The position numbers and the translations under genes are program-made. Below, one piece after another: positions 1,926 to 59,500 of a stretch of 64,000 bases of DNA. The notes beneath the pieces are model-generated. The model was not told the origin of the DNA and did no database searches. It saw nothing but the letters and a program-made list of their open reading frames with translations. The number at the start of each line of letters is the position of its first letter. The first letter of the stretch is position 1. The DNA is from Sipunculus nudus (Eukaryota > Annelida > Sipuncula > Golfingiida > Sipunculidae), in NCBI GenBank assembly GCA_026874595.1, contig CM049307.1:94338330-94402329 (forward strand). The letters run 5' to 3'.

Positions 1926-4900
1926 CTGGAAATAAACAAAATGGCCCTTCATGAATGTGAGACCCATAAAAAACCCAATAAATACAGGAGACAAATAATG
2001 ATTGTTGGTGTTTATCTGCAACCATATCATCTTTAAATATTACACTTGTCAACAAGTAAAACAAACTGACATTTATAGACAGGTTAACAGTCCGCAGTTT
2101 AAAAGAATTTTTAGCATTCAACCTTCTTATTTAAACCAAACAAATATGTGTTTAAGTACAGGTCATGTTAATATCTGATTAACTGAACCTGTGATTCTCT
2201 GTGCTGAATTAGAGATGACTTAATGAGAAGGGGTTTGTGCAAGGCATGCAGCAGGTGTCTCCATTTTAAGAAAGGCAGCAGAGTGACTGAGAAGGAGGGG
2301 AACTAAAGACGATTTAGCTCTCAATGATCATCACCTTAATTTTCAACATTACTATTTACTTCCAGGGATTTTAGTTATGGGTTGATATCTCTGGGTGGTT
2401 TGGCTTGAAAATGTATCTAGGTCCAACTGTAATTTGTCATTAATCATGCCTTTTGTGACATATTTTGTACCAATTGATTAAGCTGCATAAAAATAGCACC
2501 TGAGATTACAAGCACAGGTAATACGCCTTAGTATAACACTCTTAATTTGTTCTATCAATTGCAAATGAAAGTCTCATTAGAATAAAAGATGAGAGAAAAT
2601 AAACTCACCTCCTCTCTGTTGAACCAAATAACTCATCTCAGTCAGTACAGTGAGGGCTCCCTCATAATCCTCTGAAAGACACATTCACAGCAGATAAAAT
2701 GAAGCATTTGTCACTACAGGGTACAACCACAGTGCACATACCTCAACAGAGGCTGGATGTTTAACTGGATCAAATCCCAAATTTATAATTACACCAAGGC
2801 AATCCATGATAACTTGACTGGCAGATAGGTAATTGTATTGCATAATTTGTAATTTAGTCTATACTAGGGAAATTAGGCAAGAGCGTATCCTTGAACGAAA
2901 TTACATTTTGTACTTGTACATAAATGAAAAACAATGTGCAGAGAATAAACTGATAGTACATCTGTCACTTTGAAAAATTTCTAAACATGCTGCCAATTTT
3001 AACAACCTACATTTAGATTTTATTTATCAAATCTAATTTATATTAATTTTTTATATAAAATACTTTTCATTCAGTTATAAATTTTTTATGAACAAATCTC
3101 AAACTGTAGCCTATACATTTCTTTTCTAAAAATGTCATCTAAAACTGAATTCACACAACCGGTGAATATAATCATGTTAAACAGTTTTTCTTTGCACTAA
3201 TACTTACTCATCTCAACTCGACAGGATGCCACTTGTGTCATTGACTGGAAACAGTCCAAAGGATTATGGGATTGCAACTCTGCTGCCCTCTGGTAGTGAC
3301 TGATAGCTTCACCAGGATGCTTCACTCTCTGAAGTCAAAACTATTTGTATCAAATAAAATCTAAATTTTTTCTATTGCTTATCATATATAATCACTCTCT
3401 GAAGAGGAAATATATTGGCCCAATAAAATCTCAATTTTATCAATTGCTGATCATATATAAGCACTCTCTGAAGACAAAATATATTGATCAAATTAAATCT
3501 TAATTTCATCTTTTGCTCATCATACATAATCACTCTCCGAAGAAAAAATATTTTGATCCAATAAAATATTAATTTTATCTATTGCTCATCACATATATCA
3601 ACTATCTGAAGACAAAATATTTTGATCAAATAAATTCTTAATTTTATCTATAGCTAATCATATGTAATCATTCTCTGGATACAAAATATTTTGACCCAAT
3701 AAAATCTTGATTTTATCCATTGCTCATCATATATAAGTACTCTCTAAGGACAAAATATATTGACCCAATAAAATCTTAATTTCATCTACTGCTAATCATA
3801 TATAATCATATCTTTCTTCTTAATGTTTGTTTCCCTTTCATTTTATCAACCATGTAGATGGTTGATGTATATGGAGTTGACCTCATCCTGTTATACCATC
3901 TTTCCTCCCTACCATTGGCCTATTTAAGGATTTCTGATGTTCACTGTAGGAATTCCGAATTGTGGTATCCAAAACTAAACATATACAAAGCCCAAATAAA
4001 GCTGTTTGTGTGACTAGTAGAGTAAATGGGTAATTGGTATCAGTCATTAATTAACAAGCAAATTCCTGGAATTAATGTCCCCCGCATTGGGATCTTATTT
4101 TTTTCATGCTTGATGAAGGACCAGCAGACAGAGTGACAGAAAGACAGACAGAAGCCAGGCACTCAAAACAAATCCCAACCAGGGTATGCATGAGAGCAAT
4201 CACTGACCAAAATTTGAATGAAATCAGATAATATTTAGGAAAGTTATCCCACAGAAACAAAAACCTGACAGTGACAGACAGACCAACGGACATAAGCCAG
4301 ACACTTCAAAACAAATCCAAACCAAGGTAAGCATGAAAGCAATCACAGACCAAAATTTGAATGACATCGGATAATATTTAGAAAAGTAATAGCAGGGAAA
4401 CGAAAACCTGACAGACGGACAGACAAAGTGACTGACAGACAAAAGAAAAGCCAGACACTCCAAAACTAATCCCAACCAAGGTATGCATGAGTGCAATGTC
4501 TGACCAAAATGTGAATGAAATCAGATAATATTTAGGAAAGTTATCGCACAGAAATGAAAATCTGACAGACTGACAAACAATGTGACAGACAGACAGATAG
4601 ATGCCAGACACTCCAAAAGCAATTCCAACCATAGTAAGCATGAGATCAATCACCGACCAAAATTTGAGTGAAATCAGATAATATTAAGGAAAGTTATGGC
4701 ACAGACACGAAAACCTGACAGACGGACAGACAGAAGCCAGACACTCCAAAACCATTCCCAACCAAGGTAAGCATAAGAGCAATGACTGACCAAAATTTTA
4801 ATGAAACAGGATAATATTTTGGAAAGTTATTGCACAGAAACAAAAACCTGACAGACAGACAAAGTGACAGGCAGACAGACAGACAGACAGAAGGCAGGCA

Positions 4901-7900
4901 CTCCAAAACCAATCCCAACCAAGGTAAGCATGAGAGCAATCACTGACCAAAATTTGAATGAAATCAGATAATATTTAGGAAGGTTATCGCATGGAGACGA
5001 AAACCTGATAGACAGACAGACAAATTGACAGACAGATAGACAGAAGCCAGACACTCCAAAACCGATCCCGACCAAGGTATGCATGAGAGCAATCCCTGAC
5101 CCAAATTTGGATGAATTCAAATAATAATTAGAAAAGTTATCGCACAGAAACGAAACCTGACGGACGGACGGGTCTGTCTAAAACACGGAGAATCCTCGGA
5201 GAGATGGAGAATTTGCGGAGAATTTACAGTGAATTCGTGGAGAATTTGCGGAGAGTTCTATATGCAATGGTACTTTTAAATACACATTCAGATCACTTAA
5301 AATCTCCGATTATATTACTATTAACATATTTGTTCACTGTTGAATGACCGAAATAATTAAAAATCTGTACATTCACGTAAATGAGACTGTGGACTATTTT
5401 GGATTGCAAATGCAGTCGAGTTCTATATGCAATGATACTTTTAAATACACATTCAGATCACTTAAAATCTCCAATTATATTACTATTAACATATTTGTTC
5501 ACTGTTGAATGACCGAAATAATTGAAAATCTGTACATTCACGTAAACGTGACTGTGGACTATTTTGGATTGCAAATGCAGTTGATTTTTGTTTCAATCCA
5601 GAAATTATAAACAAATTTAACATTTTAAAAACAGGGATAATGCAAAAACACTTACTTTCTTATTTCAGTTCAGACATTTTTCTACCATATCCTCAAACAA
5701 AACTTTCTCCTAGAATACCAAATCCTAAATATAATGCAACGTACTGTAACCATTGGATATGAATGTGAATGTGGGTTAGGAGATGTATTTGAAGATATGA
5801 GCGGGTGTGATAAAACATTAAAAAAAAGTAATAAGTGGTTTCATTTAAAATGTGCATTTGTCTTTAAAATAACTAAAACAATTAATGAAATGGTTTTATG
5901 AAGATTGTACAAATTAGTTCTTGTACTATTGCTGTATGTACGTGTAGATTGTGCTATTTTTTTCCCATTATTTTTATTATTAGTGGACTCTGTATTGTTA
6001 TGATCAGAAAGAAGTGTGGCGTATTTTGTACAGACTAAGAAAAATGTAATTTAACTGTGATCACAATAAATATTTACTATTTTTTTCTTTTATCCTACTG
6101 TCAAGTTGATTCATTGGCTTAAAGGTATAGAATCTTTAATTGTTTGTGTATAAAGTCGAATGTTTGTTTCAATTTTTATTTGTGCATGTAAATTTCGTCT
6201 ATACACTATTAATAGTACTAGTGTTTTCTATCTATAGCAATAAATGTATGATTTATTTATTATATTATATATTTCGTTCACACCTGTAAATTTGATACAC
6301 CTGCATGGTTTTGTTATGGTTTTCACAATAAACTTTTGAAACGTTATTTAAGAGTGTTGCGGTTTCGTCTTAAGATCTGTCAGTGTCAGCTGGCGACTCA
6401 GACGAGTATTACATTTTGAGTAACACATTCACTCGGCTTTGAGTCTACATTGTTAAGCATAAAATGCTTGATTAGGTACAGATTATTAATTATTTCGGTC
6501 ATTTAATAGTGGGTAAATATGTTAAGAGTATCATAATAGGAGATTTTAAGTGATTTTAAAGTGTATTTAAATATATCTTTGCATAAAAAAAACTCTCCGC
6601 AAATTCTCCACAAATTCTCCATCTCTCCGTGAATTCTCCGCGTTTTAGACACACCCCGGACGGACAGAGAGACAGACAGACAAACCCAAAACAATGTCCC
6701 CTGCATCCACGGTGCGGGGGACAAAAATATGTCTATATGAACATAAAGAGACAGGCCTGACCTTTCAATAATGCATGGAGGGCCCCCCCCCCCCCCCCAG
6801 AGTATGCCCAATTCACTTTGAAAAGGACCAAAATACCACTGATTGAGCCGAAATTCTTGTTCATTTTAGGTCACATAGCGGATTATGTAAAAGATCTCAT
6901 AATATTTCTATTATCAGTCTTTGATTTAGGGATAACACAGAATATCTGTTTATATTAAAAATATTGAAATTTTGCCTTGCGACACTATAAGCATGGATAA
7001 TGCATATGAGATATGAGCCAATGAAGTTACATTTTAAACAAATGTACACCTGTGTAGCTTGGGCATCTAGGTCACAAAATTTTAATATCCCTTTTACAAA
7101 TTTGTAACCATTATGTCTGGACAAAAAAGCCAACCACAATAAATAAAAGGTCTGCATACTGGGAATATACTCTGGTTGGCTTCGTGAAAGTTTAATTTTC
7201 ACAGTTGCACCTGAACCTATACAATCTAAATACAGCAGAATTTGTAATTAGTATACAATTAGAATATATCCCACAAAACATCACTCATTTCTGTTACTGC
7301 CATTATATTATGACCCATGCCACAGTCTATATATCCCCGGTGATATCACAGGTTTTAATAATTAATGAGTGTTTGTATTGGCTGGTTTTGATATCATGAA
7401 CATAGCAGGTTGCTGATTCACGAACCATGTTTTCAGAGGTGTGATAACTAATTTTTTTTGTACAGAGGCATCATTCTCTCTTGTTCATCTTAGCTGTAGG
7501 GATATCTTACTCCCGAGGGTTTCATGTTGGCGATTAATTCCCATTCGCAAGTATCATAAAATTAAAACCCTTCGAACAAAAAGGTAACCACAGTATGCCC
7601 TCCTTAGAACTGAGAAGACCATGTGACAATTCAGTTGAGAATGACAGCTAGATAAAATATAAATTTCTGCTGCAGTATCCTTATTTAAAGAGCCTTCCAC
7701 CAGTGCTTTACACTTGCCACACAAATATAACCCCCTCATTCCCTCCCTGTGAATGGTGGTTTTGTGAGTAAACTGTTGTGAGCTTTTCTGTATTAATGAG
7801 AATTTTCTCTGTTAAAGTTTATAAGCCAGAGTAAGCCAACCGAAAATTTTCCCTTATTGGGCCTATTATCGCCCATCCCGCCTCGCTCCTGTGTAACTAG

Positions 7901-10900
7901 GTCACACTTCTGCTACCTGTAATCACATTTTCGAAGGCGGAAGGAAGTGGACTGGGAGGGAGCGATGTTTGTAATACAGAAAAGCTCACAACAGTTTACT
8001 AACAAAACCACCATTCACAGGGAGGGAATGGGGGGGTTTTATTAGGTAAACATAAGTGTGAGCTGTTTCTGTATTAATGAGAAAAGAACAGACAGGCCTT
8101 GGGGAGGGAGCACCTACCTGTAACGATGGAACGAGGAGAATCTCAGTGCTGGGACGGCGCAGCAGACGACCTCGGCGAGGAAACAGATGGAGAGGAAGAA
8201 GATGGCCTGGAAAATTGGAGGAACTCACCCGCCGCTATCACAAGCCCCAGGGAGTAAAGGCCCGAAGCCTGGAGCTGAACATCCTTTAGATAAAAGCGTG
8301 TGAATGTAGATGGGGATTTCCAGTAGCCCTTCTTGACCAATTGATTGGGTGAGATCCCGGAGAAATGGACCAAGGAAGTAGAAAGAGCTCAAATGTCATG
8401 AGCCTTGATGTGAAGTTGTTCTAAGGTGGATGGAGAAGCTGATTCATAGGTGGCGACGATAGTAGCTTTGAGCCACGCACTAATGGTGATAGGGCTAATC
8501 TCCTTATTGGAAGTCGTGACTTTGGTAGAAATAAACAACTTCTTGCGCCCCCCCCCCCCCCCCCCCCCCCGGAAAAGAAAGATAATAACGTAACTCATGA
8601 ACCGGGCAATTGGTAGCCCCATAACGGTACTGACCGTTAGGGAGGGCCGGAACGTGCCAAGCAGACGGAGGATCATCGAAATTTTGGTTCTTTCTATAAA
8701 AATCCGGAGGAAAATGTAGGGTGGCCAACGAACAGTCGGCCGCAATTTGCGTGAATTTCAAATCAGCCACGAGGGCATGAAGCTCAGAGCGGCGACCGGC
8801 AGAGGCAAGAGTGAGGAGGAAAACCGTTTTCCGAGATAAATGGAGAAGATGGGCCGAACGCAGCGGCTCATAAGGGGGTTCCCGGAGGTGACGTAAGACG
8901 ACGTCCAGGCGCCAGGAAGGCGCAACATACCGAGGACGAGACGCACGGGCATGAACCCCCTTGAGAAAATCCTACACCAACGGATGATGGACACGATCGT
9001 GACCCAGCGGACGGAGCACTGACAGCAGGGCGGCACGATAGCCATGGAGAGAGGGATAGGATAAATGTTTATCCTGCAGTAAGAACACAAAAAAAGTCCA
9101 AAACCGCCACAAGCGACGGATCTAATGGGGAGATTCCACAGGAAGACGCCCACTCGGTAAAGAGACGCCACGGGGAGTCATAGATGCGGTCCGAAGAACA
9201 GCGACGGGGAGCCCAGGCAAGGAGAGCAGCCGGACTTGAAATGCCCTGATCCTTGGGGTGTCCAAGGAGAGCAGGAATGCACATAGAGGGCACGACCGAA
9301 ATGGGCGACGCGCTCGAGGGAACGACGGGAGCGCGAGGCGGAGCGGTAGTAGAAGCGGGGGGTGAGAGAGTAGTGAGCGCCACAGAGGAAACCAGGGAGC
9401 CGCAGGATGAAACAGTAGTATGAGAAGGAGGGTCGTCTGGTCCGCGCGGGACAAGCGGAGAAGGACACGGCGGATGAGATGAGGCGCCGGGAACGCAAAG
9501 AGAAACTGGTGAGACCACCCGGACGGTGGCCTGTCGGGGAGACGGTCGCGAGGGTGACGTAGACGCGTCGTGGTAGGTACGAGAACGGGGGGGAACGGAA
9601 AATTGAACAGATCGAATTCCGGCCGCCCCAGGCAAGCGAAAACACTCCGCACAACCAGGAGCGGAAGGAGCATCGGGGGAGGAGGAGAAGCAGGACAACG
9701 GGAAAGGGCGTCCGCGAGGATGTTCGACACGCCCTGAAGATGGGACGCATGAACCGATGCCCGGAGAGAGATGCATAGATCGAACAAAAGGTAGGTCTCC
9801 TGCATGAGAGAGGGAGACCGAGTACCGCCCTGCCTGTTGATATATGCCACAACCGTGGTATTGTCGGTCCGGACGAGAATGTGATGGCCCATCAAGCGGG
9901 GAGACCAGCTGGAGATTGCGCGACGGACGGCACGCAGTTCTAGTATATTGATATGGAGCAGACGTTCAGACGTGGACCATATCCCCGAAGCGCAAGGATC
10001 AGCAAGATGGGCCCCAGAACCGAGGAGAGACGCATCAGTATAGATGGTGCAATCGACATCTTGGGAAAAAGGAACGCCGCGCAGGAGAAATGGAAGGTCC
10101 AGCCAGGGACGAAGGGACCTCCAGGTGAGCTGAAACGGGAGGACTGTAGGACGAACCGAGGTTAAAGGGAGAAGGCCGTGACGGCGCAGGAGAGACTGAA
10201 TCGGACGTAGGTACAGTCGGCCGAACGGGATAAAAGACGCCGCCCAGTTGAGAGCGCCGTGGAGAGAAACTGCCGTGCGAGAGTCGACATGGCGCAGCGT
10301 GAGAAATGAACGAATCTGCCGGCGGAAGCGACGCCGTGCCGGACGCAAAAATCGAGCGTGACACCCAGAAATTGGAGGGACTGGGTGGGAGTGAGAAGAG
10401 ATTTCTCCGCATTGACGAGAAAGCCAAGGTTCCAAGTAAGGTGAGAACTCGGGAGCGATCAGACAGTAATAGGGAGCGATCGGCCGCATGGTCTAGCAAA
10501 TCGTTCAGATAAGGGAGCACAGAAATGCCCTGGGAACGGAGATATCGCGTGACCGTATGAACCAGCATGGTAAAAATCCAGGGGGCCACTTTGGTCCCAA
10601 ACGGGAGGGCCCAGAATTGAAAGACGCGGTTCTGATACGCGAAGCGAAGAAACGGTTGAGACGATGGATGGATTGGAACGTGAAAGTAGGCATCCGTAAG
10701 GTCGATTTTGAACGCCCAATCAATCCTTCGAACAATGCGGAGCACAGCATGGATATTGAACATCCGAAACGGGGGCAGACGGATGAACGAATTGAGGGGC
10801 TTCAGGTCTATGATGGGGCGCCAGTGCCCGTGCGCTTGGCGGGATCGGACGGAGGCGGAGTGAAGAACGGATGCAGGGTGACGGGAGGTGCGTGCAAAAA

Positions 10901-13900
10901 CGTAAGACGGAACCCGAACTTGATGGTGCTGAGAATTAACCCATGTGAGGTGATACCCGCCCACGCGGGAAAATGGGCGCTTAGACGAGCACCGACCGGA
11001 ACGAATGAGTCATTTCTTGGTCGAACCTCGTTTGGAGGAACGACCACGAAAAGGCTGAGAACGGCTGGAACGGCCGGAAGGACGAGAAGACGGAGCAGGA
11101 GCGCGACGCGGCTGAGCGGGAGCAGCAACCAAAGGCCGAGGGCGCGGGATGCGGAAGGACGGCCGAGGCGCAATAGAGGCCGAGCGGAGGCGGGCCTGAC
11201 GATCCGAGCGCTCCAAGGCGCTGTCAAAAAAAGGCCGTAAATGGCCGCCAAACAGCAGGGAACCGGTAAAAGGCTGAGAATACAGCTCGGTCAACTCCGC
11301 CCAGGTAAGCTCCGGCTTTAAGTGCTTTAAGGACTGAATGCAAGCCGTGCGGCGTAACAAGATACAATTTTCAACCAGGCGCCAAACGACCTGTTGCAAC
11401 TCAGCGCAAGTATGGGCAGAAGCCTGCCAGATGTCGTTAAGTGTGAGCGAGTCCTGAGATACTGCGAGCAGGCTAGTAACGGCCTGCAAGTCGTTAACCA
11501 TACCGGCCGCTTGCCGGCCGAGCCCCTCCAGATCCGACAGGTGACGATCGGAAAACTGGACAGACGATGGAAATAAAGACTTACCATCCGCGAACGGCTG
11601 TTCAAGGCCAGACTCGAGCCGAATCGGAGCAGACGGAATATCCGGGTGATCAGGATTCAAATAAGAACCAGCCGCCGACGCCGAGGAAGACCGAGGTTGT
11701 AACCTACGGAACTCCAGACCCCTAGGGTGGGCCTCCTGGGTGGAGGTAGCCACGAGGTCCAGAAGCGCAAATTTGCGCGTACGCCAAGCCTGGCGTTGAA
11801 GCGCGATCTCCGACTACTGATCTTGTGCCAGGGCGGGATCGGCTGAATGAGAAGACGGGGACGCTGGAGAACCCCGGGAAGGGGGATCCAGAGAGACCCG
11901 CTAAGCCGGAACGACCGGAGGCTGGAAACAGGAAGCCGGGGATCGGGCAGCAGCAGGGACCATCCGGGAAGGCACAGGAACCGGAGCCGCAGGCAGCACA
12001 GCCGATGGTAACTGAAATAAAGAGCCGGCCGGCCGGGCCAGAACGGTGTCAGACTGAGTAACCGGAGGCGAGGCCGGCTGCACCGAAACGGAGGCAGGAG
12101 GGACCGACACACTTACCTGCACACCAGGAAGGTCCGGGCAAACCCGCTGGAAGGCCCCGGCCGGCCTCGGGGATAAGGAAGGAAGCCGGCGAGGAGCCGG
12201 GGGCGAAGAGAACGGCGGGGTAGAAAGCACCGGGGGTGCCAGCGAGGGCGCCGGGCGGACGGATTTGGGTCTAGAAGAATCGTCTAGATCCGACATAAGT
12301 GACGAGCAAAAACCGGGACAATTTATGTAATATGGAATAAGCAGACGGGCCGTCAGAACAGGAGGCCCAAGGAACGGGGGAAGATTTCCGTTTGCGGGAA
12401 TGAGAAAGCAACGACTTAACTGTCGAAACTACTGGTGAGGAAACAGGACCGGCGGGAACGGACGGGGAACGCAACATGGCCGTGTTGCGGTCACCCAGGG
12501 TAGGCTCCCCTACCCTCCCCCCCGGGAGACAACCTCGGGGCCAGACAAAGGAATCGTGGAGGGGGAACCCCCAACTATAGGGGAATGAGTCCAATCCTGG
12601 AACAAAGTCCACTTGTCTGAAGTCCAGGTTTGGCAATAAAAATAAGGATCCACCGGACCACGGCAGTAGTCATTGTTGGTGCGGCAATGGAAACAAGTGG
12701 GGTGGGAATCCCAAACCGGGATTACTGAACCACAAGAGACACAGTAAGTGGGGTTCTCCATGGCGGGCAAGGGAAAAGAAACACAACTTACAGTCAGTTG
12801 GCAAACTCGACCGTACAAACCCAACAGTGGACGAATCTCGCAGCGCGGGATCACACGTCGATCATGGCTGACGCCAGAAGATAATGTGATTACAGGTAGC
12901 GGAAGTGTGACCTAGATACACGGGAACGAGGCGGGATGGGCGATAATAGGCCCAATAAGGGAAAATTTTCGGTTGGCTTACTCTGGCGTATAAACTTTAA
13001 CAGAGAAAATTCTCATTAATACAGAAACAGCTCACACTTATATTTACGTAATAAAACCTAGTGTTTTGCACTCACAACACGTGAAAGGTCCATGGGGACA
13101 TCATATCTACCTGACCTAATTGTATGAAAGTTGTAAACCGGCCACACAATGCCAGGTCTGAAATGCCTGCTTTGTCCTACACAGCTTGTTGTTGTTTTCC
13201 CAAGTACATACTAACCCAGTTTGAAAATGGCAAAGTTTATGGTAAATGCTGATAGTCCTGTCCTACACCCTGTTCCCTTTTCAGCATACAAGTTTCAAAG
13301 TCATAACAAATATGCCAGATACACAGTTTTCTAGCGGAGCTAAATAAAATAAGACACCTTTGGCATGTATCTTTTAAACCTGTTGGTCAAACATTACATA
13401 TCAGCACACATACTTAGGAAATTCCCAAAATGACAGATCCAGGTTATGCATATTAAGTTTTATATTGAGAAACCTTCCTTTGTTAAGTGTTAATGGTCCA
13501 GTCAACTTACGGCCAAGTGAGTGAAAGTCAAACATTTTTGTTTGTTTCCAACAAGTCAGCGTCTGCCCCAGTTTGAATCTTGATCACATGATAGAACAAC
13601 TCTTTATGTTTTGCTCTTTAACTTAAGAACAATATGATGGATGAAAAATGATATTTCATCCCTAAAACTTGCGCTAATTACCAGTATGTAAAATGACCTA
13701 ACGAGGGCATTTGCGGGCGCCTTGAAATCTAGCCCTTTGATAACCCGTGGCCGTGAGGGGGGACCGTTGGAGTTTAAAGGCTTCAGGTTACTGTACTAGT
13801 TCACTCACCCTCAGTGCATTCCCAAGTTCCAAACACAATGCTGCTGCTAGAGCTGGCTGTTTGTTCTCAATGTGGACCTGAAAGACAACAAACACAAGAT

Positions 13901-20669: not shown

Positions 20670-20940
20670 GGCTCAGAAATCTGTCAAAATGTTGACACTT
20701 GACAGGAGGGATAAGATCACAACTAGTCAAGGATTTACCAAGAAAAGGGAGACCCTAATTACTAAACCGCACAACAAAAAGACTCTTTTAATACCTTTTC
20801 CCTCAGCATTAATGTTACAGTCATGCAAAGTGATGTATCTTAAGTTAAAGTAATTAAAACTTGGATGGGAAACATCATTAACGTCCACATTAATATAAAT
20901 TTAATCGAATTATAAGAATTAAAAGACACCTCTTTGCATT
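20670..20940. promoter_or_regulatory. Putative bidirectional promoter of F8A and ECSIT
   Basis: The segment lies between the F8A start codon (minus) and the candidate ECSIT 5'-UTR exon (plus). No other gene fits between them. No TATA box or CpG-rich core is obvious; the assignment rests on the divergent arrangement only. Confidence 0.4.
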
Positions 20941-21013
20941 CATTGTTACTACCTATTGATAAGGTGAAGGTCGTCTAACTGAAGGGCGAGAGAAACCGGC
21001 TTTCTGAATCAAG
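20941..21013 (+). other. ECSIT: Candidate ECSIT 5'-UTR exon
   Basis: The ECSIT coding exon begins exactly at an acceptor (TTTTCAG|ATG), so a non-coding upstream exon is required. CAAG|GTAAAT at 21010-21019 is a good donor in the right place; the exon's 5' boundary is unknown. Confidence 0.3.
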
Positions 21014-29793: not shown

Positions 29794-29850
29794 TTTGTCC
29801 AAAACACAACAGATTTACACTAAAGAATTTTTAAGAATGTTTATTACTGC

Positions 29851-29856
29851 ATTAAA
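29851..29856 (+). promoter_or_regulatory. Candidate ECSIT poly(A) signal
   Basis: ATTAAA lies 58 bp after the ECSIT stop; it is the commonest variant of AATAAA, which is absent nearby. Confidence 0.4.
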
Positions 29857-32511: not shown

Positions 32512-32586
32512 ATGTCTTCTAGAACATCGGTATCACTCGTAAATTTCTTCGTGTTTAACTCAACATATGGTCCACGTGAAGGACAA
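32512..32586 (+). CDS. CCZ1: CCZ1 exon 1
   Basis: ATG at 32512 encodes MSSRTSVSLVNFFVFNSTYG then PREGQ, followed by donor GTGAGTT. The peptide matches the conserved start of the first longin domain; phase 0 fits exon 2. Confidence 0.93.
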
Positions 32587-38500: not shown

Positions 38501-41500
38501 GCATTCAGACCGTAAGCATCCCATCAAATCAGCTGAGTAGAGACGGCCACCAGTACACGGAATATCATGATGATGACGTTCAGGACACAGTGTACTTCGC
38601 CGTACTTCAGCAGGCCTACCATATGTTCAGGGTATGATCGATTGTCTCACCAAGCCAGTTTCATGTACTTTCTCTTGTTACAGTATCTGCAGATGAATTT
38701 TACTTTCATTTAACCCTACCGGAAGGGAGAGTTATTGTTTCCACCCAATTCTCTGAGTGTGTGTGTCCACAACATATCTGAAGAAGGGTATCACAAATGG
38801 TATTGAAGTTTATCAAAAGTTTTGGTATTTTGAAAATCTCCCAGAAGGTTAGATATTTGTGTAAATCCAAGTGGAAAAACTCTATAATGAGTGTTTTATG
38901 GGTTTTCATAACATATTTGTTTACACCAGGAATCTATATAGAAATTAGCTTCCTAACCAAGGATCAAACTGCTGCAGTCGTTAATTTGCTGCTGCAGTGT
39001 TATTTAAACTTTTACATTAATGTCTGAATAAACCACAGCCTGATACTAATTGTCCAACACTTCTACGTTTTGTATAGTAAATATAAATTCAGTCAATGAC
39101 ATCACTATCATATTAAGAGACATAGCCTTATAATAACAGGGAGAAGACCTTTCTTACAAGGGATGATTTTTAATCATTTTTATATTTACTCCTGTTTTTC
39201 AGCTCTTCATGGGGACCTTCCAGAACATCATCACTAAAGCAGAAGTTGAAGGACTAAAGCAGCGGCTGGATCACTTCTACAGCAGGGTCAGTATAGGACA
39301 GACAGGACACACTGAAATGATTAGATATCTTGATGGTAAATATACTGTAACATACCATCAAATACCTACATACCATAAATTTTGGCATATACATAATTTA
39401 CCATTACAGTGAAAATATCAGTGAACTAACTAATAATTTTAAATTATAATCTGAAATTTTCATTTTAAATTGCTTCTTAAGGATATTTGTATTAGACATT
39501 TACTCAGACTTGTGCTCTGGTTCCAAATGATTCAGACTTGAAGAAGGTAGACTTGGGCTCAAAATCTCGAGGATTCTGTCTTGGACTTGGACATGTGTGG
39601 CCTGGACTCTGTCTAGGACTAAGACTTTTATGGCCTGGACTTTGTCTTGGACTTGGACTCATGTAGCCTGGACTCAGACTTGAACTTCTGTGGCCTTGAC
39701 TAGGACTTACACTCAGACTCCTGTGGTGTGGACATGACTACATCACTGTCTCAGAAATCAGTGCAGAAGGACAATTTTTTGTACCTTTTTTTTTATAAAT
39801 TTATGGAATAAATTTTTGGTCGGGGACAACATGATAAAACAGTTATTTTGCTAACAGTTAAAAGCATTTCATAACAAAACAAAATTTATTGTTTAATGCA
39901 ATGTCTGAGCAACTGAAGCTTTAAATCAATAAATTTCCATTGAAATTCAAAATAAAATGTTTGATGTGGTTGACGCCTACATTTTTGTCTTAATAACCTG
40001 AGTATTTGTTTCCTGTGGCTGCAGTGTTTTAAATTTTAAGGGAATTTAGAAAATAGATGGTATTTAAATATTTGAACATTTACTCAATCCATGGAAATGA
40101 TGGGGTTATCCTTCATGATAAAGATTAAGTTGTTTTCCTTTCTCCTGTTTTATGTGTTTTTTACTTTATGTGTTATTTTCTAGTATCTACTGACGGTTAA
40201 GTGGGCTCAAGCTGACTTGCTGGACATCTTTAATGGAATCCATTTTTTACCGTTGGACAAGAACACTTACCTCAAAATACAGAGCTTCATCAACTTGTTG
40301 GAGGCGTCATTCCCTCAGATTAAATACACAGCATTCCTATATGGTGACCAGCTGGTCTGGTGAGTTTATACACACATACACACACACACAGAACTGATAT
40401 ACAACATTCCTTTATATTGATCAGCTGATCTGGTGACTTTATACACTTACACACACATACACAAAACTGATATACAACATTCCTTTAAATTTTGCAGCTG
40501 GTCTTATGAGTTTATACACACACATACAAACATATACACACACACACAGATCAGATATACAGAATTCCTTTATGGTGATCAGCTGGTCTGGTGAGTTTAT
40601 TTACACACACATACATACATACTCAAGAAGATCAGATATACAGCATTCCTTTATGGTGATCAGCTGGTCTGGTGAGTTTAAACACCCACCCACAAACATA
40701 TATACACACACACACAGATCAGATATACAACATTCCTTTATATTGATCAGCTGGTCTGGTGAGTTTATACACTTACACACACATACGCAGAACTGATATA
40801 CAATATTCCTTTATATTTTGCAGCTGGTCTTTTGAGTTTACACACACACATACAAACATATACACACACACACACAGATCAGATATACAGAATTCCTTTA
40901 TCGTGATCAGCTGGTCAGGTGAGTTTATTCACACACACATACATACATACACAAGAAGATCAGATATACAGCATTCCTTTATGGTGATCAGCTGGTCTGG
41001 TGAGTTTAAACACCCACCCATAAACATATATACACACACACACGCAGATCAGATATACAACATTCCTTTATATTGATCAGCTGGTCTGGTGAGTTTATAC
41101 ACTTACACACACATACGCAGAACTGATATACAATATTCCTTTATATTTTGCAGCTGGTCTTATGAGTTTATACACACACATACAAACATATACACACACA
41201 CACAGATCAGATATACAGAATTCCTTTATCGTGATCAGCTGGTCAGGTGAGTTTATCTATACACACATACATACATACACAAACAGATCAGATATACAGC
41301 ATTCCTTTATGGTGATCAGCTGGTCTGGTGAGTTTAAACACCCACACAAACATATATACACACACACAGATCGGATATGCAGCATTCCTTTAAGTTGACC
41401 AGCTGGTCTTGTGATATTTATAAACACACATATATACAAACACAGATCAGGTATACAGCATTCCTTTATCGTGATCAGCTGGTCTTTTGAGTAATACATA

Positions 41501-44500
41501 CACACACATACATACACACACATACATCTAATATACAGAATTCCTTAATGGTGATCAACTTCATGTAATCTAACTAGACATTTCTTGGCACCGCAGCTGC
41601 CAGAGTATCCCCAGACATAGTAGGCCCCCCCCCTGCTTTAAGAACGACCCCCATTTTAAGCAGCATATACTGACACTTGGCATATTTATTGTTCTTCCAT
41701 CTAACAATCCAAAATCTTGTTGAAGATGTTGGTCCTGTGACCTTGATCTTTTTAAAGATGTGTCCTGTGACCTTGACCTTTGACCTCATGACCCCAAAAT
41801 CAATTTGGGTCTTGCTTTTCCAATGGGACATATGCAAGTCAAGTTTGAAATCTATACATCAATAAAGCAGGAATGATCATCCAGAAACTAATTTTTTTTT
41901 ACAGGTGGCTCCTGTGACCTTCACCTTTGACCTTGTGACCTTAAATTTATAGTTTTCTTCCTCTCTTGGCAGGAGAACTATATGTGCAAGATGGAAGATC
42001 TGAGATGAAATGTTTGGCTGAAAATGCATCCACATCTTTTTAAAGATGTGTCCTGTGATCTTGACCTTTGACCTCATGACCCCAAAATCAATTTGGGTCT
42101 TGCTTTTCCAATGGGACATAAACAAGTCAAGTTTGAAAACCATACATCAATAAAAGCAGGAATTATCATCCAGAAACTAATTTTTGGACAGATGGCTCCT
42201 GTGACCTTTACCTTTGACCTTGTGACCTCAAAATTGATAGAGTTCTTCCTCTCTTGGCAGGTGAACTATATGTGCAAGATGAAAGATCTGAGATGAAATG
42301 TTTGGCTGAAAATGCATCCACATCTTTTTAAAGATGTGTCCTGTGACCTTGACCTTTGACCTCATGACCCCATAATCAAATCAGGTCTTGCTTTTCCAAT
42401 GGGACATATACAAGTCAAGTTTTAAATCCATACATCAATAAAAGCAGGAATTATCATCCAGAAACTAATTTTTGGACAGATGGCTCCTGTGACCTTCACC
42501 TTTGACCTTGTGACCTCAAAATTAATAGGGGTCTTCCACTCTTAGCAGGTGAACTATATGTGCAAGATGAAAGATCTGAGATGAATTATTTGGCTGAAAT
42601 TGCATCCACAACCTTTTTAAAGACGTTTCCTGTGACCTTGACCTTTGACCTCATGACCCCAAAATCAATTCGGGTCTTGCTTTTCCAATGGGTCAAATAC
42701 AAGTCAAGTTTGAAATCCATACATAAATAAAAGAAGGAATTATCATCCAGAAACTAATTTTTGGACAGATAGCTCCTGTGGCCTTGACCTTGTGACCCCA
42801 AAATTTATATGGATTATCCACTATTGGCAAGTGAGCTATATATTCAAGATGGAAGACCTCGGATGAAAGTTTGGCTTAAAATGCATCCACATCTTTTTAA
42901 AGATGTGTCCTGTGACCTTGACCTTTGACCTCATGACCCCAAAATCAATTTGGGTCTTGCTTTTCCAATGGGACATATACAAGTCAAGTTTGAAATCCAT
43001 AAATCAATAAAGCAGGAATTATCATCCAGAAACTAATTTTTGGACAGATTACTCCTGTGACCTTCACCTTTGACCTTGTCACCTCAAAACTGATAGGGGT
43101 CTTCCTCTATTGGCAGATGACTTATATGTGCAAGATGAAAGGTCTGAGATGAAATGTTTGGCTGAAAATGCATCCACAATATCTTTTTAAAGATGTGTCC
43201 TGTGACCTTGACCTTTGACCTCCTGACCCCAAAATCAATTGGAGTTTTGCTTTTTCAATTGGACATATATAAGTCAAATTTGAAATCAATACATCAATAA
43301 AAGCAGGAATTATCATCCAGAAACTAATTTTTGGACAGATAGCTCCTGTGGCCTTGACCTTTGACCTTGTGACCCCAAAATTTATATGGATCATCCACTA
43401 TTGGCAAGTGAGCTATATATTCAAGATGGAAGACCTGGGATTAAAGTTTGGCTTAAAATGCATCCACAGTATCTTTTAAAATGCCAGTCCAGTGACCTTG
43501 ACCTTTGACCTCATGACCCTAGAACCTATAGGGTTCTTACTTTAGTGGTGGGCCATACATAAGTCATGTTTGAAATCCATATGGCTATCAACACTGGAGA
43601 TATCATAAGAGGTGTGTGATTTTCACCATATATGGCAATATTCAAGGTCAAGGCCACTATCATAGGAAAGGTCATGACCCCAATTTAAATAAACATCATC
43701 CCATAACCAATACCTATGTATATGCATAATATAAAAGAAATCTGTCCATTAGTTTTTGACTTATAATGCTCACAGTACTGTAAGGTGGCAATTTTGGGGG
43801 TATTAAACGGCATGAAAACAAGTAAAGAATAATAGGTGGCGCCACCAGTTTCTGGAACATGACAACCCTATCCATGACCTTCCATCAGCTTGATTTTGGG
43901 ATAAATCCATGCAAGATTTCTTGAGATATTAAAGAATTTGTGTGATTTTCCCCAATATTGGACCTATTCAAGGTCAAGGACACTCTCCTAGTAAAGGTCA
44001 TGACCTCATTTTAAATAGGCGTCGTCCTCTTACTCATATTTATACATATACCAAGTTTGGTAAAGTTCCGTGAAATATTTTTTGGGTTATCGCGCCAACA
44101 AGATTTATATGCGGCGGCGGCGGGACCGGTATGAAACCAGAGTATCCCCCGACTTTGTCTGGGGATACAATGATTTAATATACAAATTCACACATACATA
44201 AATGCATATATGTAATATACAGCAATTAGACACCTGAGAGGGTCACAGAAAGGTCTTTGAAAGTGTAGCCACAGATCTGGTAATATGAAGATGAGACAAA
44301 CAGACAGAAATTGAAAATATATCTCCCACTTAACTAGCTTTATTGAGATAACTTGTCATATATACTGTTTATTTAATCATGATGTTTATTCAGTCAAGTA
44401 AGGTTCTGGTTGTACAAGTTGTAATATAATTTTTATTAAAAACATGAATGTATGTATATTTAATGGAATTGTTACATTATGAATTCTAAGGTCCCAAGGT

Positions 44501-47500: not shown

Positions 47501-50500
47501 TTTCGGAACACACGGGGGCTCTCTTACGTGAGCACCACGCGGTGATCTCGGGGTCTCGCTCCACTGCTACAGGGGCCCCGCTTCCGCCGGGTTCGGAGAA
47601 ACCTTGGTCCCCTGGTACCCTCTGGAATTCACGTGGGTACCGGGCTACCTGTTTCGATCGCTTGCTCCCTTTTCTGGATAACCCGGATATTCCGTCGGCT
47701 CCCATGCGCCTCGAGTCCGGCCTGGAACAGTCGTTTGCGGACGGAAAGTCTTTATTTCCGTCCTCTGTCAACCTTTCGGATCGTCACTTGTCGGATCTGG
47801 AGGGGCTCGGCCAGCAAGCGGCCAGCATGGTTAACGACTTACAGGCTGTCACTAGCTTGCTCGCCGTTTCTCCGGACTCGCTCACTCTCAACGACATCTG
47901 GCAGGCTTCTGCCCATACATGCGCTGAGTTAAATCAGGTCGTTTGGCGCCTGGTGGAAAATTGCATCTTATTACGCCGCACGGCTTGCATTCAGTCGTTA
48001 AAACACTTCAAGCCGGAGCTTACTCAGGTGGAGTTAACCAAACTTTATAGTCAACCTTTTACCAGTTCCCTGCTGTTTGGCAGCCACTTACGACCTCTCT
48101 TTGACCGCGCCTTAGAACGCTCTGATCGTCAGGCCCGCCTCTGCTCGGCCTCTCTTGCGCCTCGGCCCTCCTTCCGCGTTCCCCGCCCTCAGCCTCTGGT
48201 TACAGCTTCCGCTCCGCCTTGGCGCGCGCCTGCTACATCTTCTCGTCCTTCAGGCCGTTCCGGCCATTCTCAACCCTTTCGTGGTGGCTCCTCTAAACGA
48301 GGTTCGACCAAGAAATGACTCTATCGCTCTGGTCGGCGCTCGTCTCAGCGCCCATTTTCCCGCGTGGGCGGTATCACCTCACAGCGTTTAATTCTCAGCA
48401 CCGTCAAGTTTGGGTTCCGTCTTACGTTTTTGCACGCACCTCCCGTCACATTGCACCCGTTCTTCACTCCGCCTCCGCCCGATCCGGCAAAACGCCTCGC
48501 TTTGGAGGAGGCCATTCAATCGATGTTAGACAAACGGGCCATTTTCGAGGTTTCCCCTTCCACCGTGGGGTTTTACTCTCGCCTTTTTCTCGTTCCCAAA
48601 CCGCACGGCCGTTGGCGCCGATCATAGACCTGAAGCGCCTCAATTCGTTCATCCGTCCGCCCCCGTTTCGGATGTTCAATATCCATGCTGTGCTCCGCGT
48701 TGTTCGGCGGATGGATTGGGCGTTCAAGATAGACCTTACGGATGCCTATTTTCACGTTCCCATCCATCCCTCGTCTCAACCGTTTCTTCGCTTCGCGTAC
48801 CAGAACCGCGTTTATCAATTCCGGGCCCTTCCGTTCGGGATCAACGTGGCCCCCTGGATTTTTACCATGTTGGTTCACACGGTCACGAGTTATCTCCGTT
48901 CCCAGGGCATCTCTGTGCTCCCTCATCTGGACGATTGGCTGGTCCATGCGGCCGATCGCTCCCTCCTACTGTCGCATCGCTCCCGGTTTCTCGTCTTACT
49001 CCGGAACCTCGGCTTCCTGGTCAATGCGGAGAAGTCTCTTCTCTTCCCACCCAGTCCCTCCAATTTCTGGGTGTCACGCTCGATTTTGCGTCCGGCACAG
49101 CGTCGCTCCCGCGCGATTTTGCTCTCAAACTCCGCCGCCTGATTCGTTCATTTCACACGCAGCGCCGTGTCGACTCGCGCACAGCGGCCTCTCTCCGCGG
49201 TGCTCTCAACTGGGCCGCGTCCTTCATCCCGTTCGGCCGACTGTACCTCCGTCCGATTCAGTCTATCTTGCGCCGTCACGACCTTCTCCGGTTCACCTCG
49301 GTTCGTCCTACGGTCCTCCCGTTTCGAAACACCTGGCGGTCCCTTCGTCCCTGGTTGGACCTTTTCTTTTCTCCTGCGCGGCGTTCCTTTTTCCAGGGAT
49401 GTCGATTGCACCATCTATACCGATGTGTCTCTCCTCGGTTGGGGGGCCCATCTCGCCGATCTTCGCGCTTCCGGGATATGGTCCCTGCTCCATATCAATA
49501 TCCTCGAACTGCGTGCCGTCCGTCGCGCGATCTCCCACTGGTCTCCCCGCTTGTTCGGACGTCACACTCTCATCCGGACCGACAATACCACGGTTGTGGC
49601 CTATCTCAACAAGCAGGGCGGTACTCGGTCTCCCTCGCTCATGCAGGAGACTTACCTTTTGTTCGATCTATGCCTCTCTCTCAGGGCATCCGTTCGTGCA
49701 TCCCATCTTCCGGGCGTGTCGAACATCCTAGCGGACGCCCTTTCCCGTCATCCGGCGTCTCTTCCTTCCCCACCGCTCCTTCCGCTCCCGGTTATTCGGA
49801 GTGTTTTCGCTCGCCTGGGGCGGCCGGAATTCGATCTGTTCGATTTTCCATCCCCCCCCGTTCTCGTGCCTTCCGAGACGCGTCTACGTCACCCTCGCGA
49901 CCGTCTCCCCGACACGCCGCCGTCCGGGTGGTCTCACCGGTTTCTCTTTGCGTTTCCGGCGCCTCCGCTCATCCGCTGTGTCCTTCTCCGCTTGTCCCCC
50001 GCGGACCAGACTACCCTGCTTCTCATCCTTCTGTTTCATCCTGCGGCTCCATGGTTTCCTCTGTGGCGCTCGCTTCTGTCTCGCCCCCCGCTTATTCTAC
50101 CGCTCCGCTTCGCGCTCCCCTCGTTCCCTCGAGCGCGTCGCCCATTTCGGTCGTGCCCTCTATGCGATTGCGTGCTCTCATCGGACACCTCAAGGATCAG
50201 GGCATTTCAAGTCCAGCTGCTCTCCTTGCCTCGGCTCCCCGTCGCCGTTCTTCGGACCGCATCTACGACTCCCGGTGGCGTCTCTTCACAGAGTGGGTGT
50301 CTTCCCGCAGAATCTCCCCTTTAGATCCGTCGCTTGCGGCTGTTTTGGATTTTTTCGTGTATATACTCCAGGATAAACGTTTATCCTATCCCTCTCTGCG
50401 TGGCTATTGCGCCGCCCTGCTGTCGGTGCTCCATCCGCTGGGTCGCCATCGTGTCCTTCATCACCTGTTGGTGTCGGACTTTCTCAAGGGGGTTCATGCC

Positions 50501-53500
50501 CGTGCGTCTCGTCCCCGGTATGTTGCGCCTTCCTGGCGCCTGGATGTCGTCTTAAGTCACCTCCCGGAACCCCCTTATGAGCCGTTGCGTTCGGCCCATC
50601 TTCTCCATTTGTCTCGGAAAACGGTTTTCCTCCTTGCTCTTGCCTCGGCTGGTTGCAGTCTGAGCTTCATGCCCTCGTGGCTGATTCGAAATTCACGCAA
50701 ATTGCGGCCGACGGTTCGTTGGCCACCCTACATTTTCCGCCGGATTTTTATAGGAAAAATCAAAATTTCGATGACCCTCCGTCTGCTTTGCACGTTCCGG
50801 CCCTCCCTAACGGTCAGTACCGTTATGGGGCTACCAATTGCCCGGTTCGTGCGTTGCGTTATTATCTAAAGGCTACTCTTCCTTTACGGGGGGGGGGGGG
50901 GCGCAAGAAATTGTTTATTTCTACAAAAGTCACATCTTCCAATAAGGAGATTAGCCCTATCACAATTAGTTCGTGGCTCAAAGCTACTATCGTCGCCGCA
51001 TATGACTCTGCTTCTCAATCCACGTTGGACAAATTTCACATCAAGGCCCATGACATTCGGGCAATTTCGACTTCCTTGGCCCATTTCTCCGGGATTTCCC
51101 CCAATCAGTTGGTCAAGAAGGGATACTGGAAATCTCCATCTACATTCACACGCTTCTATCTGAAAGATGTTCAGCTCCAGGCTTCGGGCCTCTATTCCAT
51201 GGGCCCTGTGATAGCGTCTGGTGAGGTTCTCCAATTTTCCCAGCCATCTTCCTCTCCGTCGGTTCCGCCACCGACGTCGACTGCTGCTCCATCCCAGCAC
51301 TGAGATTCCTCGTTCCAGCGTTACAGGTAGGTGCTCCCTCCCCAAGGCATGTCTGTTTTTTTCTCATTAATACAGAAACAGCTCACAATTATGTTTACGT
51401 AATAAAACCCCCCCATTCCCTCCCTGTGAATGGTTGTTTTGTTAGTAAACTGTTGTGAGCTTTTCTGTATTACAAACATCGCTCCCTCCCAGTCCTCTTC
51501 CTTACGCCTTCGAAAATGTGGTTATGGGTAACGGAAGTGTGACCTAGATACACGGGAAGGAGGCGGGATGGGCGATAATAGGCCCAATAAGGGAAAATTT
51601 TCGGTTGGCTTACTCTGGCGTATAAACTTTAATAGAGAAAATTCTCATTAATACAGAAAAGCTCACAACAGTTTACTAACAAAACCACCATTCACAGGGA
51701 GGGAATGGGGGGGTTCTAGACATTGCCTGACAGTCAATGTGTACACAGCAGGAAGGCAAATGTCAGTCATTCTACTCTTTGAGAACCACTTAGCCGTACA
51801 GGTATCAAACCAATAAAGTGTACAGAAAAGTGTTTGCAGTAAATGAAATGCATTGCATGCACAGAATAAATTTTTTTTTTTTTTTAAATATTGATGTAAC
51901 TATTTGTTGCATTGTTTGTTGAAACAGGAATGCATCTGTATTCCTCATTCACAGTGTCTGTGGCTTTGAATAATCAAGCAGTTATCATATGTTGTTAAAG
52001 TTGTCATGTTTTGTTCTGTCATACTGTTCTCAAGACTCAGCCCCCAGGCCAAGGTCTTTATCGCCAGACGGAGTGATTGGCTTCTGGTCATTGGCGACAT
52101 GCAGTTGTAATATGAAAAATCTTTTCACATCAACAGTAGCTGAGAATACACAAATGAATTACACTCCTTACACCAAACCAATTTGGGGGCCAAAAGTTAA
52201 ATCATCAGTGACGCCAGACTGTTAATATACTTCTTTAAACATGTGCGAATGAAATTGAATTTCTTCATTAATGTGATATACAGTGACCACCTTAAAATAA
52301 CATGACTGCCAATGGAACCTTGATAAAGTGGTTGCATTTTCAAGCTAGGTCTGATGTAAACAGCAGAACAAAAGGAATCTGGACCATGAAAAGGTGGTCG
52401 TTATTTTGAGGTGGTCACTAAGCTAAGGTGGTCTATTGCCAAAGTTTTACTAGATAAATAAAAATGAAATGTTTTGTGTATTTTTTCTGTTTTCCAGGTA
52501 TATCACTGGACCTCCCAGTCTGAATGATGACACTAACATGGGTAAGATCCCGCGTGTGTTTGTGTGTGTTGATGCTGAAGGGGAGTTGGAGGAGTGTCAC
52601 TTGTTGGTCTATAAAGCCCTGGGAGCTGTTGTCTGCTTACTGGTTGAAGGTAAATCACACAAAACAATCACATATTCAGCAGAATCAGGCGAAAAAATGT
52701 ATCACAGTGATGAATTTTTTTTTAATCAGATACTTCAACATTGAAATCTTTTTTTTTTAATAAGAGAACAAAAATTGTGTGTAATGCATGGAATTGAGTA
52801 ACATACAAATATCTGCAGTTTAGAATCTCTCTTCTCCTTTGAAAGTTTTTATTGTTTTTAAATTCAGGTTGTAATTGTGCAATCTGGGGAAGCTTAAATG
52901 CATTTTACAGCAAGACATACATTGTAACTGGAAGAATGACTGTGTACTATGAGTTTTTTCCCCAGATGTTTTTGGTTAGGTCAAAAAAGGGAGTGCACGC
53001 CCCCCTGCGCCCCCCCCCCCCTAAATGTGCCTCTGATTTTTAGCGAACCTGTGAGCTTATGTGATGGTGCGGCGTCGTGTGTCGTGCGTCGTGCGTCTTC
53101 TGTACGTTAACCATAGCTATCTCAAAAATGGCAGAAGCTAGCATCACCAAATTTTTTGCAAATAATCAGTTATCCAAAAAACAATATCGGATTTTGTTTA
53201 TTTTTTCTCTAACTGCATTTTCTTAGATTTTATAGGGAAAAAGCTAAAAAAGCTTTAAAATTCTTCTTATCCGAATTGTCCAGCCAAATTGTCCAATATT
53301 TCACAGAAATGATCCCTGGAACAATCTCTCTCAAGTTTGTTTGAATGGTTACAGTTCGGAGATTTTTGGCTGAGTTACAGGAGGTTGAACTTTGTTAACT
53401 TTCCAAAAAAGCATATTAAAATTTAAATCTCAGAAATGGCTGGAGCTATCATCACCAAATTTTATGCCAATGTTGGTCACATAGGTCATGTCTGAAATTG

Positions 53501-56500: not shown

Positions 56501-59500
56501 CCTCATTGATATACAATGAGCACTTTACTGAAAGGAACCTGTAACCATTGCACAAGTGATACTCTTTTACATATATGTGTAACTGTTTGTGGATATTTTA
56601 TTCATTGAGATTGCAGAATCTTGGTATGGTTTGTATCTCAAGAAACTCTTTTATGAAGTTAAGATTTCCATTTGTTATCTGGTTACAGGTAGCTATAATC
56701 TGGGTTTAGTTACAGGCCTCTAAATTCTGAGTTAACTTACATGCAGCTTTAATCTGAGTTAAGTTAAAGGCAGCTATAGTCTGAGTTTAGTTACAGGCAG
56801 CTATAATCTGTGTATAGTTACAAGCAGCTATAATCCGGGTTAAGTTAAAGGCAGCTATAATCTGTGTTAAGTTACAAGCAGCTATTAATTGAGTTTAGTT
56901 ACAAGCAGCTATAATCAGAGGTTAGTTACGGGCAGCTACAACCTGAGTTAAGTTACAGACAAATATAATCTGTTTAGTTACAGGCAGCTACAATCTGGGT
57001 TAAGTTAAAGGCAGCTATAATCTGAGTTGCATTACAGGAAGCTATAATCTGAGTTTTATTACAGGCAGCTACAATATGAGTTTTGACTACTTGCGGCGGC
57101 TAGACAGCTTCATGGGGCCCAAAATGAGTGCTTTAGCTTCAGAAATTGGTGAGCAATATTCAAAGCGACCGCCTTCTAGGTAAGAAATAATACATTAAGT
57201 GATATCTAATATCCATATAAATATATGCATATATGACAAGTTTTGATATTACATCATTAAACAGTGTTTAGATATTGTGTAAATAAACAGGGTTCAAAAA
57301 TGATATATAATAAGGGCCCTGCTTTGAAAGAGTGGTGCAAACCCGCAAAAAAATTAAATATGGCAACCAGAGCACAATCAGTAATTTTCTTTCGCACGTA
57401 ATATTTATAAGACAATATTTATAGAAACCTTTTCTTCATGTCCGTACACAACACCTACCGTAATGTTCATGTTTCCAGCTTTAAGCTCTACACTTCATGT
57501 TATCAAAAATCGTGACTTCTGTAGATTTTGATTTACTGTACCTAATTATCAATTGTTAGCTTAATTGTATATTGTCATTTCATAAGCCTTTTATGAAAGC
57601 TTTTTATATTTTTATATTTTTAGTTCAGCTGACTTTCAGTCATGCTGGGCTATAGCGATGGGTCTTTGTCCGGCGTCCTTCCGTCTGTCCGGCCGGCCGG
57701 CCAGCCATCCGTTAGCAGGGCACAAATCGTAACCGTAGGGGCTAGGGCCATGAACCCTATGCAGTCTTAGAGGTTCTAAAAAGATCTCCTTGCAAACCTG
57801 AAATTAGGTCACTGCGACCTATATTCTCGAAGTTATGGGGTGTGTTTGCACCCCCCAGAAATAATTCTTTTAGCCAAAATTTTCATCCCAAACCTTCCAT
57901 CTTTCAAATACAGCTCACCTACCAACAGGGGAAGAACCATAATTATTTTGAGGTCACAAGGTCAAAGGTCAAGGTCACAGAACCAACTTCTTTGAAAAGC
58001 CTGTGAATGCATTTTAAGCCAAACCTTTCATCCCAATTCTTTGATCTTTCACATATAGCTCACCTACTAAGTGGGAGAAGAATCCTAAAGATGTTGAGGT
58101 CACAAGGTCAAAGGTCAGGGTCACAGGATCCACTTCTTTGAAAAGGTTGTGGACACATTTCAAGCTAGACCTTTCATTCCAAACCTTTCAGCACTGATGT
58201 GGCTTCTCTGCCAACAGGGGAAAAGACCTGTCGATTTTGAGGTCAAAGGTCAAGTTCACAGCACCCTCTTCTTGCGTGGAGTCATTTATAGGCAAACTTT
58301 TCAATCTTTACTTTCTATCTGTCATATATGGCTTACCTACCAATAGGGGAAGAAGCCTATTGATATAGAGTACAAAAGGTCAAAGGTCAATGTCACAATA
58401 TTGTTCTAAATGCTTGTGAACATATTTCAAGTGAAACTGTTCAACCCAAACCTTCAGTCTTTCACATATGCCACATCTATGCATCACTCAATGTGATTCA
58501 AACTTCATATTTATGGGTCTTTTTGCATGAAGAAATAACTAATTGATTTTGAGGTCAGCTGGTCAGGAGGTTAAAGGTTGCAGGTCCAAGTTATTCACTC
58601 ATTGGTTTCCAAGTAATTACACCCAGCCAGATGTAATTGGTTAGTAGTTACCCATCATTTAGAAAGAATCCAGTTGATATGTGGGCAAAAGGCCAAGGTC
58701 ATAGGTCAGGTCAACTAATTTTGTAGACCATCTCAATTTTTCTTGTATATATAAGCTTGCACTCCAGCTGGTACATCTCACCGTGTGGCTGTACACTGTG
58801 AGTGGAGTGACACTGGTGACATATGACTCCCTTTTGTATCAGGCTATTAAGTGATAAGGCTGAGTGATAAGTACCTCGTTACTGCATAACAAAACACTGT
58901 TGTTGGAATACTTCAGCCAGGAATTAACACTATGAGAGTATAGTATTAAGGTTTAGCTACTGATTTATTAGATGATGGGAACATTTTGCAGTTTATTTTA
59001 TGGAAATATAGCAATAAACGTAGTTTCCTAGATATCTGAATATTTTTATATAAATCACCACATATAAAAACAAGTGTTTGTTCTCATGATATGTGGATGT
59101 GTACTTGATTAAGGATGGCTTTATTTTATTACAAGACTCTTAGTCATGCTTTCAGCATTTCTTTTCTTTCAGGTTTTGCAGTTTACCAACCCTGCTGTTC
59201 CCATTAAAAAGCAGAGTGATAATAAAAAATATTGGACCTACACTTTTACATTTGCATATCTATAAATCTTATATGAGCGCCTGAACATGCCTTTTGAATT
59301 GATTTGGACATTCATTACTGTAACATCATTTGGAGAATTTGCCCCAAGTTTGGTCTCTTATTGGAGGATGTGTGATATCAAATGTCAGACTTGTCAGAAA
59401 TCCATTTTGTCTGCCAGTTAGCTACCTTAGAAATCCTTTTTTCAGTGCAGTTTCAGTAATTTTCCTTCAATTTTTGGTCCGATTTAGAGAATGATTGTTA

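Follow-up and report, generated by a model that had tools for sequence, protein, structure and literature searches.

The stretch of Sipunculus nudus DNA analysed here (the window; 64,000 nt of contig CM049307.1, positions 94,338,330 to 94,402,329 of the forward strand) carries two protein-coding genes, F8A/HAP40 and CCZ1, and in these genes three minisatellites lie across exon–intron junctions. Exons were located by tblastn with human protein sequences, which gave 8 exons for F8A on the minus strand and 12 exons for CCZ1 on the plus strand; between them, the genes have 20 exons and 18 introns in the window, not the 21 introns counted in an initial sequence-only reading. That reading had also proposed that three tandem arrays sit at splice junctions, and this is borne out by Tandem Repeats Finder (TRF), which places arrays across the borders of F8A exon 6, CCZ1 exon 6 and CCZ1 exon 9 (Table 1).

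Table 1. Junction-crossing minisatellites of the window and the exons that they enter
Feature	Position in window	Strand	Details
69 bp × 7 minisatellite over F8A/HAP40 exon 6 acceptor	3322..3808	-	TRF: period 69, 7.0 copies, score 611
F8A exon 6	3208..3328	-	Acceptor AG immediately right of 3328; donor left of 3208
~81 bp minisatellite over CCZ1 exon 6 donor	40324..41557	+	TRF; 15 copies including the exon copy
CCZ1 exon 6	40184..40359	+	Authentic donor GT 40360-40361; protein match
27 bp × 15 minisatellite over CCZ1 exon 9 acceptor	56682..57083	+	TRF: period 27, score 459
CCZ1 exon 9	57065..57179	+	Authentic acceptor AG 57063-57064; protein match

The arrays take in 7 nt of F8A exon 6, 36 nt of CCZ1 exon 6 and 19 nt of CCZ1 exon 9, and that at CCZ1 exon 6 appears in TRF as overlapping rows with periods of 73–89, together with a higher-order unit of 328 bp. 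Scanning for junction words, we found the CCZ1 exon 6 donor copied 14 times in its intron (10 of these copies keep the GT) and the F8A exon 6 acceptor six times, whilst the CCZ1 exon 9 acceptor has 14 copies in its array and one stray word outside it. It had been suggested that the repeat period begins at the junction; since a tandem repeat may be cut into units at any point, such a statement is without meaning. The real feature is that the exon-side edge of the array lies inside the exon, and hence that the junction falls within the unit. A splice site of the host gene is contained in the unit in all three window arrays, in ten loci of an independent sample (see below) and, as judged by eye, in one further sample locus (L054). 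Many units of the array at CCZ1 exon 6 also have an AG ahead of the copied exon tail, such that the unit resembles a complete mini-exon with both acceptor and donor.

Joining ten of the CCZ1 exons produced a single open frame to the stop, and the resulting peptide matches solved CCZ1 (9l0d_B, E 5.8e-137) without an inserted residue at the exon 6/7 and 8/9 borders. The joined F8A peptide matches HAP40 (6ez8_B, E 2.3e-36), and here the exon 5/6 border is free of gaps. At the array borders the joined exons thus fit the CCZ1 and HAP40 structures. As the protein alignments pass the array junctions without insertion, the exon-side copy (the 5'-most donor or the 3'-most acceptor) would be the exon border, and on the strength of these alignments we take it to be the authentic site in both genes. 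All copies of an array in CCZ1 and F8A fall within one intron, and the exon set is unchanged.

A stretch of 250–290 bp from each array was searched against the 1.43 Gb assembly, very common words being skipped. The F8A and CCZ1 exon 9 stretches matched only themselves, whilst the CCZ1 exon 6 stretch matched itself, short CA-rich sequences and, weakly, one segment of 72 nt on the same contig (C2:94023628-94023699; 78 % identity, ∼0.35 Mb from the gene). As such, the units of the three window arrays do not occur at many unrelated places in this search; the positive contrast is the neighbouring array of 288 bp units (41746-43581), which belongs to a dispersed family with at least 122 matches (the best 40 of 1862 candidates being scored), and copies of that family are 97–98 % identical on many contigs. 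Since the units of the window are specific to their loci, we conclude that the arrays formed where they now lie, and they do not constitute one repeat family, in keeping with the earlier proposal that they are unrelated. Moreover, the tail of CCZ1 exon 6, KYTAFLYGDQLVW, recurs in the intron copies, several of which still read RYTAFLYGDQLVW or nearly so. Two positions set all 14 intron copies apart from the exon; both differences are synonymous, as is expected if the exon remained under selection. Conservation of the exon in human CCZ1 suggests that copying proceeded from exon to intron.

Random placement of the 10 merged arrays with a score of at least 100 in both gene bodies gave a mean of 0.43 crossings against the three seen (P = 0.008), a value that is post hoc, the window having been picked out for exactly this feature. 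An independent sample of 200 exons (400 junctions) was assembled on protein match only. Its first set, L001–L180, comprises the first 80, 60 and 40 eligible matches from searches of the assembly with PF00225, PF00063 and PF00176, taken with 600 bp flanks; its second set, L181–L200, comprises the first 20 eligible matches to PF00118 (chaperonin), taken with 1150 bp flanks. The top-ranked matches used represent 80 of 126 for kinesin, 60 of 75 for myosin, 40 of 89 for SNF2 and 20 of 63 for chaperonin. One kinesin match of 732 nt and one myosin match of 411 nt were excluded ahead of the counts, as were SNF2 and chaperonin matches that lay on small contigs or measured 350 nt or more. We predicted junctions by combining the splice consensus with the protein frame, and those of L017, L080, L116 and L198 were set by hand. 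Unless stated otherwise, array edges were counted at a TRF score of at least 100 and a period of at least 10, shorter periods being omitted.

Arrays cross 10 of the 400 junctions (2.5 %, 95 % interval 1.2–4.5 %), where 2.3 crossings are expected under uniform seeding. In L001–L180, nine edges lie 3–60 nt inside exons, nine at −50 to +2 and six at −100 to −51; the intron baseline amounts to eight edges at −350 to −101 (14 at −500 to −101). The density of crossing edges in this set is therefore 4.8 times that of the intron baseline (nine versus eight edges; binomial P = 0.0017), and edges in the zone from −50 to +60 give P = 6e-5. At score thresholds of 80, 150 and 200 the ratio of crossing to baseline edges is 4.3 (P 0.003–0.005). 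The sequence-only reading had called for a test of enrichment and, run on the 400-junction sample, this test is positive, crossing edges being 2.6–4.8 times denser depending on the threshold. An excess of arrays at junctions is thus supported in the sample.

The crossing loci, L054 included, are spread over eight contigs, with same-contig pairs tens of Mb apart, and donors (L074, L105, L114, L116, L129 and L130) and acceptors (L046, L050, L066 and L198) are struck about equally. L054, likewise at an acceptor, crosses by eye through diverged copies and not by the TRF rule, and stands outside the counts of nine and ten. In L066, some twenty units of 31 bp each contain the acceptor and the first exon bases; in L050, 72 bp units contain the start of the kinesin exon leading to the nucleotide-binding motif; and in L105, 36 bp units contain the donor. 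The array of L074 extends 49 nt into the exon, and L129 has two candidate donors 16 nt apart, the array crossing under both. Two further candidates were rejected: once better acceptors had been set by hand, the L080 array abuts its junction and that of L017 is intronic, and neither was counted. At seven loci (L009, L041, L077, L138, L025, L140 and L145) the array ends in the intron less than 50 nt from the junction. L138 and L140 (C9:48.05 Mb) share a 48 bp unit; their arrays lie on those sides of two myosin exons that face each other, come to within 25 nt of the acceptor and are perhaps the two ends of one array.

What is in excess at junctions is the edge of an array and not the quantity of repeats. 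In a word-based scan that uses no repeat finder, locally duplicated 30-mers accounted for 1 of 355 (0.3 %) at 45 nt inside exons and 13 of 359 (3.6 %) at the junction, compared with ∼5–6 % in introns. An initial notion that junctions are repeat-rich was dropped, since junction words are duplicated less often than intron words, and it is the edges that pile up. Had seeding been uniform, arrays of several hundred bp would be expected to make coverage rise slowly away from the exon. Instead, coverage holds close to the intron level until just short of the border, where it ends; accordingly, the excess is one of array edges, not of coverage.

Several observations weigh against an excess centred on the junction. 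Repeat coverage is lower there than in introns, as described above, and intron-side edges (the nine at −50 to +2) equal crossing edges in density; the junction itself may therefore not be the target, which may instead be a zone from about −90 to +50. At a score of at least 50 the crossing excess is only 2.6-fold (P = 0.025). The chaperonin set by itself shows no excess, with one crossing in 40 junctions (L198) and seven baseline edges in 950 bp; one of these seven (L184) is the L198 array viewed from the next exon, and was retained even though it counts against the excess. Finally, the sample is small, its baseline consisting of 8–14 edges, and its junctions are predicted ones, four of them placed by hand.

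Each intronic copy of a junction is a potential decoy splice site, and the AG or GT is kept in 110 of 133 intron copies, a total that includes at least one stray word beyond its array (CCZ1 exon 9, 530 nt upstream). Selection on these dinucleotides was not detected: mismatches amount to 11.3 % at the decoy AG or GT, versus 9.3 % in neighbouring columns (P = 0.31) and 10.9 % in columns of the same base (P = 0.83), with 17 of the 30 dinucleotide mismatches coming from the phase-noisy L114. When rated with a generic consensus score, 53 of 109 decoys do no worse than the authentic site. As decoys so often score at least as well as the real site, local strength, measured in this way, cannot explain site choice, which probably rests on position and exon context, i.e. 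on exon definition. For most decoys a frame shift or added stops are predicted; in-frame, stop-free decoys include the nearest four in L050 and the nearest two in CCZ1 exon 9. Nothing in these sequence comparisons points to the use or upkeep of decoys, and the earlier suggestion that junction-overlapping units are favoured because their splice signals are compatible with splicing is unsupported, AG and GT being retained no better than the neighbouring bases.

Taken together, these observations would fit a course of events in which a short stretch (about 27–83 bp) astride an exon–intron junction is duplicated in tandem, placing the exon end and its splice site in every copy, and in which the array then grows within the intron by unequal exchange or slippage while the exon-side copy stays as the border. 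The gene would survive such growth because the duplicated junctions leave with the intron, provided that splicing keeps to the exon-side site. Seeding of arrays, or their persistence, would occur preferentially within about 50–100 bp of a junction. We regard this overall account, of duplication across the junction, amplification in the intron, removal by splicing and a several-fold excess at junctions, as the more credible one, albeit with moderate confidence. A bolder version, in which splice junctions are the birthplaces of minisatellites in this genome and transcribed exon borders provoke short tandem duplications, is put forward tentatively; splicing complexes on nascent RNA, RNA–DNA hybrids or the step in composition between exon and intron may act as triggers.

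A mutational hot zone at exon borders and a longer survival of arrays beside exons both fit the excess. According to the latter explanation, exon-adjacent arrays persist since any large deletion or insertion removing them would harm the exon as well and be selected out. This accounts for the pile-up on either side of the junction and for the exon-anchored edge, and copies are indeed a little less alike in crossing arrays than in deep ones (mean match 84.1 and 87.5, respectively); nevertheless, copy identity as a proxy for age does not separate the two possibilities (P = 0.23 for crossing versus deep arrays, P = 0.55 for crossing and near versus deep), and coverage does not drop off over the first 285 nt of the intron. 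We consider longer survival a somewhat doubtful, yet serious, contender. Alternatively, junctions might not be special at all: duplications would strike uniformly, exonic ones would be purged, and those in introns or at junctions would be neutral as they are spliced out. The position of the junction within the unit varies as random breakpoints would have it (exon overlap 3–50 nt), no selection on decoys was detected and the excess at a score of at least 50 is modest, all of which agree with mere tolerance. As uniform seeding predicts only about 2.3 of the 10 crossings in 400 junctions, and the 180-exon set departs from it at the P value given above for a score of at least 100, we judge this explanation unlikely.

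Two other possibilities carry far less weight. Duplicate splice sites could serve a selected function as alternative exon ends or back-ups, in line with the retention of most AG and GT dinucleotides and with the in-frame, stop-free decoys nearest to the L050 and CCZ1 exon 9 junctions; given that these dinucleotides are mismatched no less than their neighbours, and that most decoys would introduce frame shifts or stops, such a function is very improbable. The arrays could also derive from a dispersed satellite or mobile element, pieces of which came to lie at splice sites, as the dispersed 288 bp family next door and the weak match of 72 nt to the unit at CCZ1 exon 6 might suggest. For the window arrays this is largely refuted, in that the arrays at F8A exon 6 and CCZ1 exon 9 have matches to themselves only and the CCZ1 exon 6 units contain coding sequence of their own gene, and we give it scarcely any credence.

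Individual arrays of this type have precedents, and the earlier statement that no named class exists is too strong. In the human gene IFI6 (6-16, G1P3), a minisatellite supplies multiple splice donors, two downstream units acting as donors (Turri et al., 1995, as cited in PMC4526556). As far as that citation describes it, IFI6 resembles our loci in that the repeat unit of the array includes one of the gene's own splice sites; it differs in being one human gene with donors in use, whereas here many genes, and both donors and acceptors, are involved, with decoys known from sequence alone. In a potato gene, a tandem duplication over an intron–exon border created an intron (PMC4974935). There, too, the duplication spans the junction and splice signals are inherited from the parent copy, but a single duplication made a new intron, whereas our multi-copy arrays lengthen an existing one, the exon sets of CCZ1 and F8A being unchanged. 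The AGGT-duplication model of intron gain likewise multiplies splice-site sequence by tandem duplication; in that model an exonic AGGT is duplicated and a new intron results, whilst here existing junctions are duplicated. The CeRep25B minisatellites of Caenorhabditis elegans are intronic and close to multiply alternative exons (PMC4039745), and hence also lie near splicing decisions; they are a dispersed family with regulatory motifs and not copies of a local junction. Searches of full-text literature, whose coverage leaves out most subscription journals, found no survey of minisatellites at splice junctions among the titles listed. Single junction arrays are thus of a known kind, and the new part is the putative excess of edges at the level of the genome.

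If this excess extends to the whole genome, a few percent of the exon ends (thousands, by extrapolation from 2.5 % of 400) would carry arrays of near-identical splice sites, on which nature would allow exon definition to be tested at large scale against models in which the first site wins. It would further provide a concrete path to longer introns and a measurable tie between splicing and local DNA instability. Should junctions prove to be birthplaces of minisatellites, this would make introns grow, and the strings of equal-strength decoys at a few percent of junctions would constitute a natural experiment on site choice by the spliceosome.

A number of other features were seen in the window and the assembly. 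Two GC-rich blocks of opposite base skew occupy ∼8000-13000 (F8A intron 5) and ∼46000-51500 (CCZ1 intron 7); each has a similar stretch just to its left on the same strand (near 7800 and 46110, respectively) and is retroelement-like. F8A intron 5 also contains, at 5253-5581, two tandem copies of 165 bp with 96 % identity, a recent duplication. Amongst the chaperonin matches, nine single-exon ones with identical scores lie on small contigs (C61, C62, C66, C72, C73, C75, C89 and C99) and are probably bacterial, from a symbiont or contaminant. Lastly, a myosin gene at C2:44848559-44854198 gave several matches to one head segment (about 109–153), some of them in an open frame of 2288 codons, which suggests a cluster of alternative exons.

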